From: Chamaesiphon minutus PCC 6605
GTDB lineage: Bacteria; Cyanobacteriota; Cyanobacteriia; Cyanobacteriales; Chamaesiphonaceae
Assembly: GCF_000317145.1 (NCBI RefSeq)
Contig: NC_019697.1
Span: 2,700,385 to 2,764,384, forward strand
Direction of reading: 5' to 3'
DNA: 64,000 nt
In this document: positions 2,069 through 55,522 of the stretch, one piece after another
Layout: every line of letters starts with the position of its first letter
How positions within the stretch are numbered: the first letter of the stretch is position 1
Made by a program: the position numbers and the translations under genes
Notes under the pieces: model-generated
The model's database searches: none
Seen by the model: only the letters and a program-made list of their open reading frames with translations
What the model was told of the DNA's origin: nothing

Positions 2069-3108
2069 AAAACTGGTTAGCCATTCGCCCGCCGTTACCA
2101 GAGTCACGCCCCGATCGGCAGCAATTGCCAATCGTCCCCATCTTAGGGGGATTGAGCTTGGTAGCGATCGTCGTCAGTGTCGGGCAAGGTGAGTACCCGA
2201 TCGCGATCGGCAATCTTGTCGCAACTCTGCTGGGAATCGATACAGGCAATCCCGATCTACCATTTGTGATTCAAACCTTGAGATTGCCCCGTACCTTAGT
2301 CGCCTTTTTAGTCGGTGTCGCATTGGCGATTTCGGGGGCGATTTTTCAAGGCTTAACCCGCAATCCCCTTGCCGATCCGAGCATCATCGGCATCAATGCA
2401 GGCGCGAGTTTGGCAGCAGTTACGACGATCGTGTTATTGCCCGATGCCCCAGTTGTTGTCCTACCGATCGCCGCATTTTTCGGGGCATTATTGATGGCAG
2501 CCTCGATCTATAGTTTGGCAGGAACCGGGAAAAATTCACCGATGTTATTAATTTTGCTGGGCATTGGCTTATCGGCGATCGCTAGTGCCTGCACGAGTTT
2601 AATGATTTCCTTGGGTTCTATTTACCAAGTCAGCCAAGCTTTAGTCTGGCTGGCTGGCAGCGTCTACGCTCGCACCTGGTCGGATTTATTCGCCTTGTTG
2701 CCGTGGACGCTGGTTGGTACTGCCCTGGCATTGGGACTAACGCGAGAGTTAAATGTCCTCAACTTGGGCGATGAGATCGCCGCTGGATTGGGGAGTCGCG
2801 TAAGCTGGCAACGCGCCCAGCTCGTTATCGTCGCCGTGGCGTTAGCTGGCTCGGCAGTGGCTACCGCTGGATCGATCGGGTTTGTCGGACTGATTGCCCC
2901 CCACATCGCCCGCCAACTCGTCGGGGGCAATTATCGCCAGATTTTACCAGTCACCGCCCTCATCGGGGGCATTTTAGTAACGATCGCCGATACGATCGGG
3001 CGCACGATCTTTGCCCCGATCGAGTTGCCCTGTGGTGTCGTCATCGCCGCGATCGGCGCGCCGTTTTTCCTCTATTTACTGATTCAAAATCGCTACCGCC
3101 AATGCTAG
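2065..3108 (+). CDS. FecCD-family iron-siderophore ABC transporter permease (second)
   Basis: 347 residues from the ATG at 2065, chosen because it overlaps the previous stop by four bases (translational coupling) and gives the usual family length. An open frame extends upstream to 1903, but those codons lie inside the first permease and show no family similarity. The protein repeats the hallmarks of its neighbour: [39 protein letters not shown], and [20 protein letters not shown] before the last helices. The similarity of the two genes indicates an old tandem duplication, usual for this transporter class. It partners the first permease and the ATPase encoded immediately downstream. Confidence 0.93.
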
Positions 3109-3986
3109 AACTCGTCGCTCAAGATCTATCCCTGGCTTACCAAGGGAACGCGATTATTCACGATTTATCCTTAACGATTCCTGCCGAAAAAATTACTGTA
3201 TTAGTGGGGTCGAATGGCTGCGGCAAATCGACCTTACTCAAAGGGTTGGCAAGATTGCTCAAACCGACTAGCGGCGGGGTATATCTCGATGGTAAATCGA
3301 TCCTCGCCGGATCGACCAAAAGCGTCGCCCGCCAATTGGGATTATTACCGCAAAGTCCGATCTCCCCTGAAGGTTTAACCGTCAAAGATTTGGTGTCCCA
3401 AGGTCGTTATCCCTATCAAGATTGGCGGCAACAATGGTCGATCCAAGACCGTCAAATCGTCCGCGAAGCCTTGGAAATGACCGACTTAACAGCCCTGAGC
3501 GATCGCCCCCTCGATACCCTCTCTGGCGGTCAAAGACAGCGCGCCTGGATTGCCATGTCCCTGGCTCAAAATACCAAAATTTTGTTACTAGACGAGCCGA
3601 CCACATTTCTCGATCTCGCCCATCAAATGGAAGTTTTGGATCTGCTCTACCGACTCAATCAGCACCAAGGACGGACGATCGTGATGGTATTGCACGATCT
3701 CGATCGAGCCTGTCGTTATGCCGATTATTTAGTTGCCATTAAAGCCGGACGTGTATTTGCCGCAGGCACCCCAGCCGAGATCGTCACAGCAGAACTGGTC
3801 GAGGCGGTATTTAACCTCAAATGTCAGATCTATCCCGATCCGATCGCCGGAACGCCGATGTGTATTCCGATCGGTACCAAAACCTTCAATCCAGAAGCTA
3901 CCGATGGCAACCATCCAGTTCGACCCAATCTGCTCGGCAGCCTCAAACCGTTGGAAGCTGAAAAGGTGTTGAGAACAGAACTATAG
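3102..3986 (+). CDS. Iron-siderophore ABC transporter ATP-binding protein (FecE/FhuC type)
   Basis: 294 residues. Walker A is GSNGCGKST (residues about 37-45), the signature is [10 protein letters not shown] (about 141-150), and Walker B is ILLLDEPT (about 161-168), followed by the switch histidine in MVLHDLDRA. All catalytic motifs look intact. The start overlaps the end of the second permease, so the three genes form one operon. The protein powers import of the ferric siderophore. It is some 35-40 residues longer than typical FecE proteins because of a Pro-rich C-terminal tail after about residue 255; that tail is not recognisable. The binding protein gene lies 1.5 kb further on, separated by three unrelated genes. 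Confidence 0.93.
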
Positions 3987-11282: not shown

Positions 11283-11516
11283 TAAATTAACCTATTAAAT
11301 AATGTTTTAAATAAATATTTGAAATATAGTTTGATATTTACTAGTCGGAAAAATCCCCTCCTCGGAGGGGTGCCCGTAGGGCGGGGTGGGTAGATCTCCG
11401 CCACATCTCCAATAACTCAAATTATCCTCGATCGATAGGTTAGCCAGCGGTTAAAACCGCCACTAGTGATGCAAAGTCCGCGTAGGCGGACTAATATTAT
11501 TAATTTGAATAACCCA
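11283..11516. repeat. Gene-free spacer with two dispersed repeats
   Basis: Between the NRPS and the membrane-protein gene. 11353-11394 carries a GC-rich repeat (CCCCTCCTCGGAGGGGTGCC, then GGGCGGGGTGGG) also seen at about 18289-18331 and 26055-26085. At 11447-11496 lies a half-copy of another repeat, with the palindrome GTCCGCGTAGGCGGAC, related to the element at 13436-13569. No gene or clear promoter was seen. Confidence 0.7.
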
Positions 11517-13435: not shown

Positions 13436-13569
13436 CGTTCTAGCACCGCCAGCGATTGAAATCGTGCCTAGTGATGCAAAGTCCGCCTACGCGGACTGGG
13501 ATATTAGTCCGCGTAGGCGGACTTTGTATCATGAGCGGGGGTTTCCAACCCCACGGCGGTGTTAGAACG
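13436..13569. repeat. MITE-like palindromic repeat with CGTTCTAGCACCGCC ends
   Basis: A 134-bp element whose ends are near-perfect inverted repeats (CGTTCTAGCACCGCC at 13436-13450, GGCGGTGTTAGAACG at 13555-13569). Inside are nested palindromes: CGATTGAAATCG, GTCCGCCTACGCGGAC and a second copy GTCCGCGTAGGCGGAC. It lies between the PKS and the monooxygenase genes. The ends are shared with elements at 31309-31513 and, less well, 22069-22295. Its interior is the uninterrupted version of a repeat found inside the PKS gene at about 14935-15040. Confidence 0.8.
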
Positions 13570-13576
13570 GAGCTGA

Positions 13577-16500
13577 CTAACTTATTGCCTGTTCCCGATC
13601 TAATCGATCGCGTACTTCATCGATCGACAAATTTTCAATCTCGGCTAACAGGCGAATCATTTCATCAGGATCGTCTGGCTCACAGAGGAGATCGGCGATG
13701 ATGGCTGCCAATCCGGCTACGGTTGGGGCTTCGGATAGGAGGGTTCGCAGGGATAGATCGACGGGGTAGATTTCGCGGAGTTGGGAGACAATCCGCACGG
13801 CGAGGAGGGAATGTCCGCCAAGCTCGAAGAAGTTATCATTTGCACCGATTTGGGCGATACCGAGTTGGTTTTGCCATAGTTGGGCGATTCGTTGCTCGAT
13901 CTCGGTGCTGGGTGCGATGTAGGCGGTTTGAATCGATCGAGTGTGTTCCGCTGCTGTTGTCTGTTCGGGGCTAGGTTGGGGAGTTGCGGCAGTTGATACA
14001 GTGCGCTGCTGTTGTTGTTTCAGGACTGTTTGCCAGTCTTGAGTAGAGACGATCGCCCGATCGAGATCGCTGTGAAGGATACGCTGGAGGGCTTCCCATC
14101 CGGCGGCGGGGGCGATGCCTGTGGCGAGGGCTGCTAATCGTTCCTGTTTGAGATGGGTGGGTAGTCCGGTGAGATCGGCTCCCATACCGACTTCTTGCCA
14201 GATATCCCAGTCGATCGAGATGGTGCGATAGTTGGGGTTGCGGTTTTGGGCGAGGGCGAAGGCATCGAGAAAATTGTTGGCGGCGCAATAGTCAATTTGT
14301 CCCATCCCGCCGAGCAAGGCACTGTGTGAGGAGAATAAGACTAAGAAATCGAGGTGTTTGTCGCGGTAGATGCGCTCGAGTACTAGTGTGCCTTGGACTT
14401 TGGGGCGCATGACGTTGGCTGCGGTTTCGGGGGTTTTAAGTTGGATGATGCCGTCGCCTGGGATACCCGCTGTGTGGAAGATGCCGTTAATTTGCCCGTA
14501 GGTTTGCTGGATTTGCCCCTGAATGGCTGCCATTTGGGCTAGATCGGCAACGTCGGCATTTAGTACGAGTATTTCTGCCCCGATCGCTTGGAGGGATTGG
14601 AGTTGGCGGATTTTGATACTTGTTTTATCCGCTTCATCATGAGTTGTCAACCAGCTTTCCCATTTAGCTCGATCTGGAAATGGCGAACGACCGATTAGAA
14701 TAAGTTTTGGCTGTATTATCGTCTGGGCTAGATGTGTGGCGATCGTCAGTCCGATTCCACCCATCCCGCCTGTAATCAGATATACGCCCCGATTTCGTAA
14801 TGATGTTGGCGACTCGACGGGGTTTAAATACAGGGGTTCGGCGATCGGCAACCAGCGATAATTGCCCCGATAAGCGACGATTGGATCGCTCGATGTCTTA
14901 GCCTGAGTCAGAATCTCAGCGATCGTCCGATCTATATCCCAGTCCGCGTAGCGAAAAGTGCGTTCTTGGGGTTTCCCCAAGTGAAGCACCTTTTCAAGAC
15001 AGGCGGACTTTGCACCACCAGCAACGACTTCCAGTCGTTGTGCCATATCGATCGCACAGCAGCTAATATGTGGATATTCTTGAGGAATGACTCGACAAGC
15101 TCCCAAAATAGTCGCTGTTTCCGGTTGAATCGTTTCGGTGCCCGTGACATCTTGACTATTGCTAGTCACTACGCCAATGTGGATCGGATCGTTGCTATTT
15201 TGATGCCCGATCGCTTGAGCTAGATAGAGCAAACTATAGAAGCCCAAGGTTTGCGACTCTTCAAAGCACAGATCCGCGCCCAGCGTCCAGAGATGAGTAA
15301 TAATGGGTGCTCGATCTACAGATAACACTGATTGCATCAGTGTCTCATAGTGGCTGAGATCGCTAGGATCGATCGTATAAATATCGTTATTGTGGCTAAA
15401 TTGAGTACCAATTTCGACCTCAATTACTCGATCGCCCTGTTGCTGCAAGCGTTGTGCCATCGAGTCTGCGAATCCCAATCGGGCACTAAATATTACCCAA
15501 CAACGCGATCGATCTGTCGGCACGATCGCGGGTGAAACCGCCCGCTTCCAAGAGGGGACATAGAACCAGTCGCCGATATCCGCTTTTTTAACTGGCGTAA
15601 CTAGAGCGCGATTTAGCTCGTTTAGTGCAGGTGCGTCGATCCAGTACCGCTGTCGATCGAAGGGATAGGTAGGCAGGGGTACGCGCTGGCATTCCCGATC
15701 GGCATAAAAGCTAGTCCAATCAACTTCCACGCCACTCAACCACAGTTGCCCCAAGGTTTTCAGCATCAATTCTAGATCCGAAGATTTATCCTGGGGATGG
15801 GGGAGGGAATAAAGAATAGTCCGATCTGGTGCCTGTTGTTTGGTTAAGGTGCCCAGAGTTCGCCCTGCCCCGACTTCTAGGAAGATCGCCTCGGTATTGG
15901 TTAATAACTCTGCCATCCCTGCTGCAAATTGCACGGGCTGACGCAAATGCTGCACCCAGTAGCACGGATCGGTGGCGGCTGCGGGTGTTATCCAAGTTCC
16001 CGTAACATTGGAAATAAACGGAAGTTGGGGCGGATGGAGCGTAATCTGGCGCAAACATTCGACGAATGGCTCGATCGCGCCCTCCATCAGGGGCGAATGG
16101 AAGGCATGGGAAGTATGCAACGGACGGCAAGTAATCCCTCGCGTTGCCAGTAGGCTCTCTAATCCCGCGATCGCTTCAACTGTCCCCGAAACTACATTCA
16201 GAGTGGGACTATTATGAGCCGCGAGGTAAAGGGTGTCATCGAGTAAGGGCTGGAGATCTGCGGCGGCTAAATGGACGGCTAGCATCGTGCCCGTCGGCTG
16301 CTGCTGCATTAATATTCCGCGCGTGACAACTACCGTCAGCGCATCCTCCAGCGAGAAGACACCCGCTAAACAGGCGGCGACATATTCACCGATACTATGT
16401 CCGATCGCGCCTTGCGGGGTTACGCCCCAAGACATCCAGAGTTGGGCGAGGGCATATTCGATCGTAAATAAGGCAGGTTGGGCGATCGCGGTTTGGGTGA

Positions 16501-18247
16501 GTTGGTGGGTAGCTGTGGCGAGATCGGCTGAATCAGCAAATAATACCGATCGGAGATCGATATCGTGCTGGGATTGCAGGAACGTCAAACAGCGATCGAC
16601 ATCCGATCGAAAGGTAGCTTCGCTTTCATACAGTTCTCGTCCCATATTGACATATTGGGAACCTTGACCGGAAAACATCAACATTATCGGCGGATTGCTA
16701 GCTGTTGTCTGCCCTGTAAATACCTGCGGCGAATCTTCCGCTGATAAGGCTTGCACGGCATTATCTAAGCTAGAAACGATCGCAAATCGCCGTCGATCGA
16801 ATGCCCACCGCCCCATTTGTAATGTATAAGCAACATCGGCTAAATTCAGTTCGGGTGACTGTTTGAGTCGATCGCTTAAATTAACCGTCGATCGATCTAA
16901 TGCTGTCGCTGTTTTCGCTGACAGTGCCAACAGTTGATAAGCTCTCGGTTGTGAAGTTGCCGGATCGAGGGGCGGAGCTTCTTCTAAAATGGCATGAACA
17001 TTCGTACCGCCAAAACCGAAGGAACTCACCCCCGCTCGACGTGGAGTACCGTTAGTTTCCCATTCAGTTAACTTAGTATTGACATAAAAGGGACTACTAG
17101 CAAAATCAATTTGCGGATTGGGAGTTTCAAAATGAAGACTGGGGGGAATCCGTTTGTGATGCAGTGCCAACACCGTTTTGATGAATCCGGTAATCCCCGC
17201 CGCCGCATCTAAATGTCCGATATTAGTTTTGACAGATCCGATCGCGCAAAACTGCTTGAGATCTGTCGATGCGCGAAAAGCTTGCGTCATTGCGGCAACT
17301 TCGATCGGATCGCCCAATGCCGTACCCGTACCGTGAGTTTCCATATAGCTAATGGTTTCCGGCTCGACTTCCGCCATCAATTGCGCGGCGCGAATCACTT
17401 TAGCTTGTCCTTCCTGACTGGGTGCGGTGTAGCCGACTTTCATCGCCCCATCATTATTAATCGCCGAACCTTTGACTACCGCATAAATCCGATCTCGATC
17501 GGCGATCGCATCTTCCAGCCGTTTCAATACTACAATTCCCAGCCCGTTACCGCCCACAGTGCCATTAGCGTTACAGTCGAAGGCGCGACAATGCCCATCG
17601 GGAGACACGATTTCATCAGGTGAGAGGGTAGTTTCACTCTGCGGTACTTTCACCGCCACCCCAGCAGCCAGAGCCATGTCACACTCGCCACTGAGCAGAC
17701 TTTGACAGGCTAAATGCACCGCAACTAAGGAACTAGAACAAGCCGTCCCCATGCTGATACTCGGCCCCTTGAGGTTCAATTTATAAGAGACGCGAGTGGG
17801 TAAATAATCTTTATCAACTCCCACTAATGTGGGCAAAAATCCCCGCGATTCAATCAATCCTGGATTCGGGCTGAGGTTATATAACAGGTAAGTTCCCATC
17901 CCCACACCTGCAAATACCCCGATCGCGCGCTCCTCATTTTCCGAGCTATAACCCGCATTTTCGAGAGCTTCCCAAGCAGATTCCAAAAACAACCGATGTT
18001 GAGGGTCCATTGTTTCAGCTTCCTTGGGATTGAAACCGAAAAAAGCAGCATCAAATCGATCGACATCCTTTAGCACCGCCCCAAACCGCTCGATCCCATT
18101 AGAGCGCGTCTCACCATCAGTAAGTGGGGTAATTAATTCGACTCCATTTTCTAAATTTCGCCAAAAGTCCTCGATCGTCTCCCCGCCCGCAAATTTGCCA
18201 GCAAGTCCAATTACTGCTATTTCTAAACCGTTAAAATTTGAATTCAT
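13577..18247 (-). CDS. Type I polyketide synthase, KS-AT-KR-ACP
   Basis: 1556 residues. Ketosynthase (about 8-425) with active-site Cys170 in GTACSSS and the two histidines in HGTGT (305) and KTNIGH. Acyltransferase (about 520-820) with GHSIGEY (Ser618) and HAFHS near 714, the signature for malonyl-CoA. Ketoreductase (about 890-1330) with the NADPH motif ITGGMGGIG near 1158 and SSHSALLGGMGQIDYCAANN. ACP (about 1425-1500) with FFELGGHS. No dehydratase, methyltransferase or thioesterase was seen, so the module adds a beta-hydroxy two-carbon unit. Residues about 1070-1105, in the linker before the KR, are encoded by an inserted repeat with a second hairpin element nested in it. The position suggests it elongates the salicyl-thiazoline made by the NRPS encoded just upstream. 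Confidence 0.93.
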   Translation of the reverse strand: MNSNFNGLEIAVIGLAGKFAGGETIEDFWRNLENGVELITPLTDGETRSNGIERFGAVLKDVDRFDAAFFGFNPKEAETMDPQHRLFLESAWEALENAGYSSENEERAIGVFAGVGMGTYLLYNLSPNPGLIESRGFLPTLVGVDKDYLPTRVSYKLNLKGPSISMGTACSSSLVAVHLACQSLLSGECDMALAAGVAVKVPQSETTLSPDEIVSPDGHCRAFDCNANGTVGGNGLGIVVLKRLEDAIADRDRIYAVVKGSAINNDGAMKVGYTAPSQEGQAKVIRAAQLMAEVEPETISYMETHGTGTALGDPIEVAAMTQAFRASTDLKQFCAIGSVKTNIGHLDAAAGITGFIKTVLALHHKRIPPSLHFETPNPQIDFASSPFYVNTKLTEWETNGTPRRAGVSSFGFGGTNVHAILEEAPPLDPATSQPRAYQLLALSAKTATALDRSTVNLSDRLKQSPELNLADVAYTLQMGRWAFDRRRFAIVSSLDNAVQALSAEDSPQVFTGQTTASNPPIMLMFSGQGSQYVNMGRELYESEATFRSDVDRCLTFLQSQHDIDLRSVLFADSADLATATHQLTQTAIAQPALFTIEYALAQLWMSWGVTPQGAIGHSIGEYVAACLAGVFSLEDALTVVVTRGILMQQQPTGTMLAVHLAAADLQPLLDDTLYLAAHNSPTLNVVSGTVEAIAGLESLLATRGITCRPLHTSHAFHSPLMEGAIEPFVECLRQITLHPPQLPFISNVTGTWITPAAATDPCYWVQHLRQPVQFAAGMAELLTNTEAIFLEVGAGRTLGTLTKQQAPDRTILYSLPHPQDKSSDLELMLKTLGQLWLSGVEVDWTSFYADRECQRVPLPTYPFDRQRYWIDAPALNELNRALVTPVKKADIGDWFYVPSWKRAVSPAIVPTDRSRCWVIFSARLGFADSMAQRLQQQGDRVIEVEIGTQFSHNNDIYTIDPSDLSHYETLMQSVLSVDRAPIITHLWTLGADLCFEESQTLGFYSLLYLAQAIGHQNSNDPIHIGVVTSNSQDVTGTETIQPETATILGACRVIPQEYPHISCCAIDMAQRLEVVAGGAKSACLEKVLHLGKPQERTFRYADWDIDRTIAEILTQAKTSSDPIVAYRGNYRWLPIAEPLYLNPVESPTSLRNRGVYLITGGMGGIGLTIATHLAQTIIQPKLILIGRSPFPDRAKWESWLTTHDEADKTSIKIRQLQSLQAIGAEILVLNADVADLAQMAAIQGQIQQTYGQINGIFHTAGIPGDGIIQLKTPETAANVMRPKVQGTLVLERIYRDKHLDFLVLFSSHSALLGGMGQIDYCAANNFLDAFALAQNRNPNYRTISIDWDIWQEVGMGADLTGLPTHLKQERLAALATGIAPAAGWEALQRILHSDLDRAIVSTQDWQTVLKQQQQRTVSTAATPQPSPEQTTAAEHTRSIQTAYIAPSTEIEQRIAQLWQNQLGIAQIGANDNFFELGGHSLLAVRIVSQLREIYPVDLSLRTLLSEAPTVAGLAAIIADLLCEPDDPDEMIRLLAEIENLSIDEVRDRLDREQAIS
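14951..15001 (-). repeat. TGTCTTG hairpin element inside the PKS coding sequence
   Basis: A 51-bp element starting TGTCTTG and ending TTTTCGC on the minus strand, with outer stem GAAAAGGTGC/GCACTTTTC and inner hairpin CTTGGGG-AAA-CCCCAAG. It interrupts the palindromic repeat GTCCGCC|TACGCGGAC, whose intact form occurs at 13481-13496. Being 17 codons long and in frame, it adds residues 1083-1099 to the PKS without a stop. Removing it leaves the host repeat exactly, with no target duplication. Confidence 0.85.
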
Positions 18248-18490
18248 ATCACTATATGTCTATTGTTTTTGATAATCGATCGCTTAGAAAATCCCCTCCT
18301 AGGAGGGGTGCCCGTAGGGCGGGGTGGGTCAGATCTACGCTTCACACCAGCAACCCGATCGATGTTAATAGTGGGGTTGGGCAGGTTTGTACGAAAGTTA
18401 ATTGCACGTTTGAACTAATTGCATAAACCTGCCCCTACAGGTTATCTAGATCCCCGACTTCTCAAAGAAGTCGGGGATCTGATTCTCACT
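18248..18490. repeat. Spacer with three different repeats, including a 15-bp hairpin
   Basis: Between NRPS and PKS genes. It holds a copy of the GGAGGGGTGCCCGTAGGGCG repeat (about 18298-18330), an inverted pair built on GGGCAGGTTT/AAACCTGCCC (about 18378-18434), and a perfect 15-bp hairpin (18448-18480; arms AGATCCCCGACTTCT, loop CAA). The last could weaken read-through between the two biosynthetic genes, but it lacks a U-tract and looks like a dispersed repeat. Confidence 0.7.
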
Positions 18491-24013: not shown

Positions 24014-24098
24014 ATTGAAGTAGGGCAATTCATGAAGCGACGCGCGCTCCGGAGGAAACCTCCGGGTTTAGCGCGTCAAGACATTGCCCTACTTCAAT
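24014..24098. repeat. 16-bp inverted repeat enclosing a TGTCTTG hairpin element
   Basis: Perfect arms ATTGAAGTAGGGCAAT (24014-24029) and ATTGCCCTACTTCAAT (24083-24098). Inside, 24037-24083 is a 47-bp TGTCTTG element in minus orientation (inner hairpin CCGGAGG-TTT-CCTCCGG). Removing it restores the palindrome GGGCAATTCATGAATTGCCC, a close relative of which stands uninterrupted at 601-621. The rest of the 445-base spacer (23891-24335) shows only the promoter-like motifs listed; the open frame at 24032-24286 runs through this repeat and is not credible. Confidence 0.85.
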
Positions 24099-25790: not shown

Positions 25791-26024
25791 CTACCGTGTA
25801 TACACAAGTCCAGTAACAAGCGCAAATGGTCGAAATCCCCCTGTCTTGTCTCCCTAATCCGTCGGGGAACCCGACGTTGGCGCAGCCACTCCAAAGGAGT
25901 TACGGGAGCCGCTAAATCCCCCTTAAAAAGGGGGACTTTGGCTGGATCTTAGCCCCCTTTTTAAGGGGGTTTGGGGGATTTAGATCTAAAAACGAAGTCA
26001 ACCATACTTGTGTACACACCGTAG
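25791..26024. mobile_element. MITE-like element with 19-bp ends and about 9-bp target duplication
   Basis: 234 bp with ends CTACCGTGTATACACAAGT and, inverted, ACTTGTGTACACACCGTAG (17 of 19 positions pair). It is flanked by TCCTCTCCTT (25781-25790) and CCCTCTCCTT (26025-26034), which fits a 9-bp target duplication. It interrupts a GC-rich dispersed repeat known from 11353 and 18289. Inside it lie a 71-bp TGTCTTG element (25842-25912) and CCCCCTTAAAAAGGGGG-type hairpins. There is no transposase, so it would be non-autonomous. The remainder of the 380-base spacer is repeat DNA. Confidence 0.75.
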
Positions 26025-26093
26025 CCCTCTCCTTAGGGAGAGGCTACGCCAACGGAGGGGTGCCCGTAGGGCGGGGTGGGTAGATCTCCGCAG

Positions 26094-27446
26094 CTACTCC
26101 GATTTCAACACCAAATTTGTCAACATCGTATTCATCTTATTCACCGACTCCACATACTCATTTTCTGGTACCGACTCAGCCACAATCCCCGCACCAGCAT
26201 TGAAATGAATCGTGTCACCGTACTGATAAGCCGATCGAATCGCGATCGCCAGATCCGCCGTACCGCGACTATCGATCCAGCCAATCCCGCCCGCATATAG
26301 CCCCCGTGGTTCCGTTTCCAAGCGATCGATCCACTCCAATGCCGATCGTTTATTAATGCCCGAAACCGTAATCCCAGGGAATAACACCTTCAACGCATCC
26401 CAAAGTGTCTTATCGGGTTGCAGTTCCCCACCAACGCGAGAAGACAGATGTTGGACGCAGCGGTATTGCTTGACCTCCATAAAATCAAACACCCGCACGG
26501 TTTCCGGCACACAGAGCGAAGTTATTTCATCTTGAGCCAGCCAGATCGAGAGGGCATGTTCTTTTACCTCTTTGGCATCGGTAAATAACTCGCGATTTAA
26601 CTGCTCGTCTCGCTCCAGATTTTCAGATCGGGGACGAGTTCCCGCGAGTGGGTTGGTAATTGCAAATCGATCCGCATCCACCGTCATCAAAATCTCAGGG
26701 CTGAAACCCACCGCGCTGACATCATCGAATTGGAAACAATACGATCGCGCTGAATTATTACTCTCAGTCCCCAGACGATAGGTACCCAACAGATCCATCT
26801 GTCCCTTAACTTTGACCGATCGAGCGATAATAGCTTTGTGCAAATGTCCGGCTTGAATTGCCTCTACCATTTCGCTCACTTTGGTTTGATAATCTTCGCG
26901 ATCGGCAAAATCCAGAGTGGGTGGGGTGGCGGTATAATTCCGCAATGGAGACTCGATCGCTAGAGCTTCGATAATTTTAGTTAGAGATTTGACACTTTTA
27001 ATCCGAATCCCTTTATCGGTAATCTGGAGTTCGGTTTCAGGAATCGAAAAATATAATAAGGGTTGCTCGATCGCCTTACTATAACTCGAATAAAACCGCG
27101 CCATATCGAAACCCACATAGCCATACGCCGTCCAATTTTCGATCGGTAATGATGCCAGCATCTTCTCTACCTGCTGGAGCGGATCGCCAACAATTCTCGT
27201 TCCGAGAGGCTCCGCCAACGATCGCGACTCGATTTCACCTAAATAATCTAAGGTTACAGTATCAGTACTCACCGCAATACTGGCTAAGGTATTCCCCGCA
27301 ATCCGCGTCTGCCCATCGCCCTCGTAGAGCATATAACTGGAAAATAAACCAATATCTAACAAATTTTGTAATAAAGATTGCGGATCTTTGGTTTCTGGGA
27401 CGAATAATTCATGGTAAACGAGCGGCTGAGTGTCGGTGGAAAACAT
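26094..27446 (-). CDS. Salicylate synthase (MbtI/Irp9/YbtS family)
   Basis: 450 residues, the usual length for single-domain salicylate synthases. It belongs to the chorismate-binding fold: GHLHKAIIARSVKV has the conserved lysine near the N-terminal part of the site, NPLAGTRPR and ELFTDAKEVKEHALS are core motifs, and the C-terminal block EPRGLYAGGIGWIDSRGTAD followed by AIRSA is typical. The family converts chorismate to isochorismate and then salicylate plus pyruvate in one active site, which fits the aryl ligase and carrier encoded next to it. An isochorismate synthase lacking lyase activity is the main alternative, but no separate lyase gene is present. Confidence 0.88.
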   Translation of the reverse strand: MFSTDTQPLVYHELFVPETKDPQSLLQNLLDIGLFSSYMLYEGDGQTRIAGNTLASIAVSTDTVTLDYLGEIESRSLAEPLGTRIVGDPLQQVEKMLASLPIENWTAYGYVGFDMARFYSSYSKAIEQPLLYFSIPETELQITDKGIRIKSVKSLTKIIEALAIESPLRNYTATPPTLDFADREDYQTKVSEMVEAIQAGHLHKAIIARSVKVKGQMDLLGTYRLGTESNNSARSYCFQFDDVSAVGFSPEILMTVDADRFAITNPLAGTRPRSENLERDEQLNRELFTDAKEVKEHALSIWLAQDEITSLCVPETVRVFDFMEVKQYRCVQHLSSRVGGELQPDKTLWDALKVLFPGITVSGINKRSALEWIDRLETEPRGLYAGGIGWIDSRGTADLAIAIRSAYQYGDTIHFNAGAGIVAESVPENEYVESVNKMNTMLTNLVLKSE

Positions 27447-43809: not shown

Positions 43810-44117
43810 TAGTGCTAGAGGATGGAGGGACAATCTATACAGCTCTTGTCTCAACTATTTTACGAGGGATTGGCTCTTTTTAGGAAATAGGGGTAGGGGA
43901 TGGGTAGAAGGTAATGGGTAATGGATTTTGGATTTTGGATTTTGGATTTTGCGGCTCGCAGCCGGGAGGTTCCCTCCCGGATTATGCGAGACAAGACAGG
44001 ATTTTGGATTTTGGATTGAGAAGAAAATCCGCCTAGTCTCCCAGTCTCCCCGTCCCCCCGTCCTCTCGCCTCCCCGTCTCCCCGTCCCCCCGTCTCCCCG
44101 TCCCCTCGTCTCCCGTT
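43810..44117. repeat. Low-complexity spacer with a TGTCTTG element and pyrimidine tract
   Basis: 308 bases. A GGATTTT heptamer array (43923-43950) is interrupted by a 48-bp TGTCTTG element in minus orientation (43951-43998; inner hairpin CCGGGAGG-GAA-CCTCCCGG) and resumes in register at 43999. From about 44035 to 44115 follows an almost pure pyrimidine tract built on TCTCCCCGTCCCC-like units, reaching the ATG of the next gene. No ribosome-binding purine stretch was seen there. Confidence 0.8.
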
Positions 44118-52221: not shown

Positions 52222-52438
52222 CTTAGAGGATGTCTGAAAAGTCTAATTGCTTCGTTTGCAGTGGGTAAATCCCCCTGTCTTGTCGCACACAAACGGGAGG
52301 GAACCTCCCGTTCGATGCGACTCTTAGTCCCCCTTAAAAAGGGGGACTAAGAGTCGGTTCCCCCCTTTTTAAGGGGGGCTAGGGGGGATTTTCTAGGGTT
52401 TAAGCTTAACGGAATTGAGTTTTCAGACATCCTCTAAG
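52222..52438. mobile_element. MITE-like element with perfect 19-bp inverted ends
   Basis: The ends CTTAGAGGATGTCTGAAAA (52222-52240) and its exact reverse complement (52420-52438) enclose repeat DNA with no transposase. The outermost bases TTAG/CTAA suggest insertion at a TA-centred target, as with IS5- or IS630-type ends; I cannot decide which. A TGTCTTG hairpin element sits at about 52276-52322 and CCCCCTTAAAAAGGGGG hairpins at about 52330-52390. It separates the 30-codon gene fragment from the GrpB-type gene. Confidence 0.8.
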
Positions 52439-53810: not shown

Positions 53811-54100
53811 GCGTTAGGTTTTAGGTTTTAGTAATTGGCGTAAATTTATGAGGGCACCCACAAGGGGCACCCCTACACCATTAATTTGTAGGGGTGCCCC
53901 TGTCTTGACGCCAACAACCTCCAGGTCGATGCGTCGCTTGTGGGTACCCGACTATCTACACTCGCACTAATATATTTGTGCTAACACAATCTGTGAGTAT
54001 ACTCATATTTACCGAAAAAACTGTAAAAAAGTAAACAAATGTTGCAGTCTATTTGTTAGGCTTACTTAAAGACGTTTTTTGGAAGAAGGTCGGAGCGATC
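53811..54100. repeat. Spacer with a GTAGGGGTGCCCC repeat interrupted by a TGTCTTG element
   Basis: 290 bases. An inverted pair GGGCACCCACAAGGGGCACC / GGGGTGCCCC spans about 53850-53900. At 53901-53937 a 37-bp TGTCTTG element (outer stem GACGC/GCGTC, inner ACCT-CC-AGGT) interrupts the host repeat exactly between CCCC and TTGTGGGTACCC; the intact form is at 40603-40627. The last 150 bases before the next gene are AT-rich and presumably hold its promoter. Confidence 0.85.
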
Positions 54101-55441: not shown

Positions 55442-55522
55442 GACGGAAGCTGATGTTTCCGTTCACTCCTCACACCACATCCCGCCTGAGACACTTAACC
55501 GTGTCTTGGGCGGTTCCTTTTT
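55442..55522 (+). ncRNA. yfr1: Yfr1 small regulatory RNA
   Basis: The unpaired core ACTCCTCACAC (55465-55475), an invariant signature of cyanobacterial Yfr1, lies between two hairpins: ACGGAA...TTCCGT before it (about 55443-55462) and CCGCCTGAGACAC/GTGTCTTGGGCGG after it (55482-55513), the latter followed by a U-rich run as terminator. Yfr1 is known to lie downstream of a guaB-type gene and is needed under several stress conditions, pairing with porin and other mRNAs through the core. The position after guaB3 fits. trxA, its usual downstream neighbour, is not present. No protein gene occupies 55265-55789. Confidence 0.92.

Follow-up and report, generated by a model that had tools for sequence, protein, structure and literature searches.

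A mobile 51-bp hairpin nested in a palindromic repeat, both in frame within a type I PKS gene of Chamaesiphon minutus PCC 6605

The type I PKS gene P0001 of Chamaesiphon minutus PCC 6605 carries one mobile hairpin inside another repeat, and both are read in frame. The gene lies in a window of 64,000 nucleotides (contig NC_019697.1, positions 2,700,385 to 2,764,384), which is the whole stretch of DNA analysed, and the source genome has 6.76 Mb in three contigs with a completeness of 100. With a probability of about 0.8, we propose that one arm of the outer repeat was fixed in frame, was later split by the inner hairpin, and has been retained as a tolerated passenger.

The PKS gene and its outer repeat

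The PKS gene, the three parts of the nested repeat and two outer copies beside the gene are located in the window as follows:

13577..18247, minus strand: type I PKS module KS-AT-(pseudo-KR)KR-ACP, P0001, an ORF of 1556 aa with Pfam domains
15002..15040, minus strand: outer dispersed repeat, 5' part, with hairpin CGACTGGAAGTCG then TGCAAAGTCCGCC, encoding about QRLEVVAGGAKSA from residue 1070
14951..15001, minus strand: inner 51-bp TGTCTTG...CGC hairpin element, residues 1083-1099 (CLEKVLHLGKPQERTFR), with an empty site in C. polymorphus
14934..14950, minus strand: outer repeat, 3' part, TACGCGGACTGGGATAT, residues from 1100 (YADWDI)
13475..13528, no strand assigned: complete two-arm (REPIN-like) outer copy beside the PKS gene, TGCAAAGTCCGCCTACGCGGACT...AGTCCGCGTAGGCGGACTTTGTA, direct-repeat family D4, with two opposed cores
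11443..11492, plus strand: single-arm outer copy, intergenic, direct-repeat family D4, with a core match

P0001 shows the Pfam domains ketoacyl-synt, Acyl_transf_1, PF21394 (919-1070), KR (1154-1352) and PP-binding, and the insert falls in the linker between PF21394 and KR, ahead of the ketoreductase, where an earlier note made from the sequence alone had placed it. The extent which that note gave to the inner element (residues 1083-1099, 51 bp, 17 codons) is exact to the base: the element comprises exactly 17 codons, is inserted at a codon boundary and splits the outer repeat at its palindrome centre, and the frame, described as staying open, is uninterrupted over 1556 aa. The matching repeat that it saw at about 13450-13500 is the complete two-arm copy at 13475-13528. 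The outer repeat in the PKS gene is a single arm, whereas many intergenic copies, such as this one, are complete inverted pairs. Folded as single-stranded DNA, the 60-nt outer half repeat without the inner element shows a z of -5.26 and the PKS copy of the inner element a z of -3.55. An Rfam scan of the 64-kb window matched neither repeat, and its only match was the small RNA Yfr1 (RF01116), at 55443-55515.

A search of the own genome with the 106-bp composite as query gave 61 matches at E<=10, with many copies of the outer half and a second whole composite, L002 (94% over 104 bp). The outer core, AAGTCCGCNTNNGCGGACT, shows 125 matches in the own genome and, across the eight congeners, 6-81 per genome, while the reversed-pattern control shows 0 in all nine genomes. 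Two inverted REP arms were found at window 13475-13528, L006 and L014. A peptide search of the nine genomes tallied 184 matches; among the matches listed, three lie in stop-free frames of at least 1400 aa (the PKS in two species and one NRPS), two others in frames of about 500 aa interrupted by a stop, and the remaining ones in frames of 162 aa or less. The outer repeat is therefore, as in RPEs, a dispersed palindromic repeat of both coding and non-coding places. This NRPS, which belongs to the own genome, translates the outer repeat in the same frame within a condensation domain, as SQRLEVVASDAKSAYADYEDWD (L009/L237, G000:C1:952605-952664). By eye, the DNA downstream of this NRPS copy resembles a decayed second arm. 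Among L001-L030 and L068-L097, L029 also lies within an open frame, of 443 aa, in another reading frame. A separate dispersed family, CGGAGGGGTGCCCGTAGGGCGGGGTGGG, has three copies in or beside NRPS/PKS genes, at window 11363-11413, 18301-18351 and 26053-26103.

The TGTCTTG...CGC family and its insertion

Three further copies of the inner 51-mer are present in the own genome, at 98, 98 and 92%. The family pattern gives 113 matches there and its control none; one element may score repeatedly among the 113 via alternative CGC ends. In a census of 386 cyanobacterial genomes, taken outside the congeners G001-G008, 61 genomes show at least one match and only seven show at least eight (146, 113, 17, 14, 13, 9 and 8). 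Single census matches mean little, because the control also scores in 17 of the 386 genomes, with a maximum of 2 each. The genome with 146 matches, more than the source genome, is G368, which belongs to another family of the same order.

Elements were defined by a TGTCTTG string and a CGC end giving at least four stem pairs, and 37 were found with their flanks among the loci examined. Their lengths range between 37 and 64 nt, with 32 of the 37 at 47-51 nt, and the pattern list additionally has subtypes of 55-61 nt. Each element opens with a fixed TGTCTTG, followed by a variable stem. Next come a second stem with a GGAA/ACC-type tip and the segment that pairs with the first stem, and a fixed CGC ends the element. 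Besides the PKS copy, the window contains the following members:

24037..24083, minus strand: TGTCTTG...CGC element, 47 nt, inside palindrome AAGTAGGGCAA^TTCATGAATTGCCCTACTT
43951..43998, minus strand: TGTCTTG...CCGC element, 48 nt, end set by eye
25842..25883, plus strand: TGTCTTG-family element, TCTCCC subtype, repeat and pattern match
52276..52335, plus strand: TGTCTTG-family element, a 60-nt stretch around the element with a loose 3' boundary
53901..53937, plus strand: shortened TGTCTTG-family element within AGGGGTGCCCC^TTGTGGGTACCC

Covariation was analyzed in 28 elements, after those of 37, 45, 46, 58 and 64 nt and those ending in GAGCCGC were dropped. In this set 98.5% of the cells are paired and 11 of 12 pairs are altered on both sides, with the search rule of at least four stem pairs partly selecting for the pairing of helix 1 and leaving helix 2 unaffected. 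None of 500 shuffles equalled the pairing, the covariation score or the tally of cells in which both sides had changed, one in 500 reached each of the two other measures, and sliding the stem partners lowered the pairing to 26-46%. An earlier count on 25 elements (three of the 28 omitted by eye) showed 95% paired, with 12 of 500 shuffles reaching its number of pair types. Either selection for the hairpin or a replication process that copies one arm from the other could have produced these compensatory changes.

The inner family has a conserved hairpin, nests in itself, and prefers palindrome centres, its own included; at the PKS site it inserted precisely and without duplication. There, the C. 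polymorphus orthologue reads GTCCGCCTTCGCGGAC unbroken where the PKS gene reads GTCCGCC-element-TACGCGGAC. Judged from this empty site, the inner insertion shows no target duplication, one of the characters of MITEs; terminal inverted repeats, another of them, are also missing, the TGTCTTG and CGC ends lying outside the counted stem and the energy fold pairing just the last base of TGTCTTG with the first base of CGC. Other inner subtypes occupy the same position in other outer repeats at L013 and L018, and elements within elements were found at L030, L021 and L072. The arrangement at L030 (G000:C1:1283055) has three nesting levels, a TGTCTTG element in a TGTCTTG element in a GGAGGGG^TGCCCGTAGGGCGGGG repeat. 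Target sites were joined for 26 insertions, with the 58-, 64- and 37-nt items dropped and sites differing at no more than 3 of 16 bases merged. A hairpin of at least six perfect pairs is present in seven of them, against 5.1% when positions are picked at random from the same loci (p=0.00024). The other 19 targets have no such hairpin, therefore the preference for palindrome centres is not a rule.

Y1 transposases were considered as the mover and rejected, since none of the five Y1_Tnp genes of the genome is flanked by either repeat. The outer 7-mer AGTCCGC was found at none of the five loci, within about 1.5 kb and on either strand. Inspected by eye, neither of the two TGTCTTG strings close to L153 and L155 forms a hairpin. 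The RAYT association of REPINs is likewise absent, at 0 of 5 Y1_Tnp loci.

Homologues, linker structure and repeats in other hosts

The closest relative of the PKS is the orthologue of C. polymorphus CCALA 037 (L257), with 1339 of 1529 aligned residues identical. It contains the outer peptide and lacks the inner element, leaving an exact empty site. The earlier note expected the insert to be missing in most homologues, and indeed the 17 inner residues were found in 0 of 80 and the outer peptide in one, that of C. polymorphus; distant homologues encoding the same residues by other codons, which would have spoken against a repeat origin, were not seen among them. Measured between the invariant Asp and the AYR motif, the linker has 25-35 residues in 74 of the 80 homologues, and 38, 40, 44 (C. 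polymorphus), 53 (L283), 64 and 67 in the others, against 58 in P0001. In a second homologue set, likely to overlap with the first, linker length was readable by pattern in 15 of 21 rows, and the 13 measurable besides P0001 and C. polymorphus range between 24 and 35 residues. Alignment A1 was made without L134, L136 and L139.

Between the PKS genes of the two Chamaesiphon species, Ka/Ks is 0.149 for the whole gene and 0.272 for the KR, with catalytic motifs intact and an interspecies synonymous divergence of 0.48. These ratios, which also average the time preceding the inner insertion, indicate purifying selection on the gene. The comparison shows that the outer repeat entered before the split of the two species. 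By parsimony and by its near-identity to other copies, the inner element would have been gained after the split and not precisely lost in C. polymorphus.

The linker was modelled with AlphaFold2 on residues 901-1400, using 42 sequences (P0001 and 41 of the 80 loci). The model has a mean pLDDT of 90.9 and a pTM of 0.91, and its best match among solved structures is the PKS ketoreductase 5d2e (TM 0.73). The sole segment with pLDDT below 50 is model residues 173-191 (P0001 1073-1091), which covers most of the repeat peptide and falls in the loop that joins the strand at 161-168 to the helix at 202-218 (model numbering), and residues 191-200 average 55. The structure prediction proposed in the earlier note thus puts most of the peptide, at very low confidence, in a predicted linker loop. 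The repeat peptide is most likely a flexible loop, low confidence being no proof of disorder.

Repeats of other families were found in the same KR linker in three other genomes. Cyanosarcina radialis (L334) and the cyanobacterial genome G070 (L130) show an in-frame CTCTCCTACGAGGAGAGGGG-type repeat there, with 43 and 7 genome matches, respectively, each including itself. A Desulfatirhabdium MAG (L291) shows an in-frame CGTTACGAGG...CCTCGTAACG repeat with 83 genome matches, many places being counted on both strands of the palindrome. The L291 PKS contains two in-frame copies at domain junctions in the same reading frame (2383-2494 and 3056-3181); one is the copy in the KR linker, and the other is at the AT-to-pseudo-KR junction. 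Further CTCTCCTACGAGGAGAGGGG-type copies lie in an NRPS ORF of G070 (L340) and in an RPE65-type ORF of the Cyanosarcina genome (L339), therefore megasynthases are not the sole hosts. Across a 500-residue region in 81 sequences, inserts of at least 15 residues occur in the KR linker in four (P0001, L283, L291 and L334) and after the KR in L334 and L307. This suggests a special preference of such repeats for PKS linkers, in a small set in which L283 is counted by length alone. The insert after the KR in L334 is of 19 residues, EDAASTEQIVGWVERSETQ, encoded by an imperfect palindrome, GTTGGGTT...AACCCAAC.

Origin of the insert and relation to known repeats

Two steps would account for the nested insert. 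As its distribution shows, one arm of a REPIN-like repeat abundant in the genus was fixed in frame in the pseudo-KR/KR linker before the species split. Later, as the empty site shows and by parsimony in the lineage of this strain, a 51-nt hairpin entered the palindrome centre GTCCGCC^TACGCGGAC, adding 17 sense codons. The inner element may move in trans as a folded single strand, often picking exposed hairpin tips, and the insert may have been retained where the linker, as a flexible surface loop, tolerates added residues. Because 51 nt equal 17 codons, and two of the three forward frames are open in the 51-nt subtype, survivorship offers the best explanation of the open frame: just in-frame events in tolerant loops would remain. 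The peptide is thus most likely a passenger, selected only to remain open and in frame, and no evidence was found for a function of the peptide itself.

The composite might instead have come in one step, by recombination that converted the PKS copy with a nested copy such as L002, which has the same nested arrangement and the 94% similarity given above. We consider this unlikely: the PKS inner element differs from L002, at the same site of another outer repeat, at 3 of 51 bases and from each of L003 and L004, which lie in other contexts, at 1 of 51, and the outer flanks of L002 are unlike those of the PKS copy. As the PKS copy is nearer to L003 and L004 than to L002, the outer-repeat site was probably hit more than once. 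The same single difference from L003 or L004, despite the interspecies synonymous divergence, makes it quite improbable that the insert is ancestral and was precisely lost in C. polymorphus, even if excision of a hairpin by replication slippage is plausible on general grounds.

Co-option of the peptide, for instance into a KR loop with a docking or regulatory role, would fit its retention in frame, the frame of the outer repeat shared by two genes, and the inserts in the same linker in other lineages. However, the loop has very low model confidence, and the inserts of other lineages are different repeats, as mere tolerance predicts, so that we hold co-option to be highly improbable. Hardly any credence is left for a decaying pseudogene or an assembly artefact, for which the ORF, the genome data and Ka/Ks gave no support; a complete genome in three contigs, a frame open throughout with its catalytic motifs, and the low Ka/Ks all argue against it. 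The preferred history remains fixation of the outer arm, splitting by the inner hairpin and retention as a tolerated passenger.

In-frame palindromic repeats in ORFs have been described in Rickettsia conorii, O. terrae, Thauera, Xanthomonas and others, and many intragenic REP inserts encode 20 to 30 residues, some more (PMC3733652). Besides the protein-coding palindromes of Rickettsia, intragenic REPs have been found in several further genera (PMC3733652 and PMC10969869), and the view in the earlier note that coding palindromic repeats are known mainly from Rickettsia does not hold, as they are described well beyond this genus. Like RPEs and intragenic REPs, the repeats studied here are palindromes that occur dispersed and became fixed in frame within protein genes, but a second, different element is nested and the hosts are PKS and NRPS; they are set apart from RPE families by description. 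Many intergenic outer copies resemble REPINs in having two inverted arms, each with its own palindrome (PMC3116915), whereas the PKS copy is single-armed and no RAYT neighbour is present at the five Y1_Tnp genes. Palindromic repeats (REPs) are also hot spots for insertion sequences, according to Tobes and Pareja 2006 (PMC1525189); the likeness lies in the target, but the mobile unit here is a 51-nt gene-free hairpin.

The TGTCTTG family shares self-nesting (L030, L021 and L072) and covariation with the cyanobacterial SDRs. These, which Elhai et al. are said to have described in 2008, are reportedly tiny (21-27 nt) and structured, show compensatory changes, and are inserted in other repeats and in their own copies. 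TGTCTTG elements differ by their prevailing 47-51 nt and by their fixed TGTCTTG/CGC ends, and are set apart by this reported size, not by consensus.

Among four diagnostic strings of both repeats searched in the accessible literature, only TGTCTTGAAAAG matched, in a sheep SNP study. Neither the nested coding arrangement, nor the empty site of the sister species, nor the recurrent inserts in one synthase linker were found among the literature matches listed, in the accessible parts of these sources. The earlier judgement that an in-frame nested case in a PKS is unusual therefore stands for the nesting, and falls for its isolation, given the other palindromic repeats in three other genomes. Coding palindromes are already known; what would be new is that they are nested, that a sister species keeps the empty site, and that one synthase linker has taken up repeats recurrently.

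Tentatively, and with more doubt than conviction, TGTCTTG...CGC hairpins may be a gene-free mobile class present in several cyanobacterial families, which recognizes structure instead of sequence and inserts at hairpin tips, and PKS/NRPS linkers may be preferred niches in which such palindromic elements survive across phyla, with mobile repeats helping to shape these linkers between biosynthetic domains. The nested insert would represent a two-step history of selfish hairpins turning into protein, with the intermediate still alive in the sister species. A specific inter-domain linker of assembly-line enzymes would be a tolerant landing pad in several lineages, and may serve as a natural guide to spots where engineered PKSs may take added sequence. 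With the structure-conserved, sequence-variable TGTCTTG family, the movement of gene-free hairpins of about 50 nt becomes directly testable.
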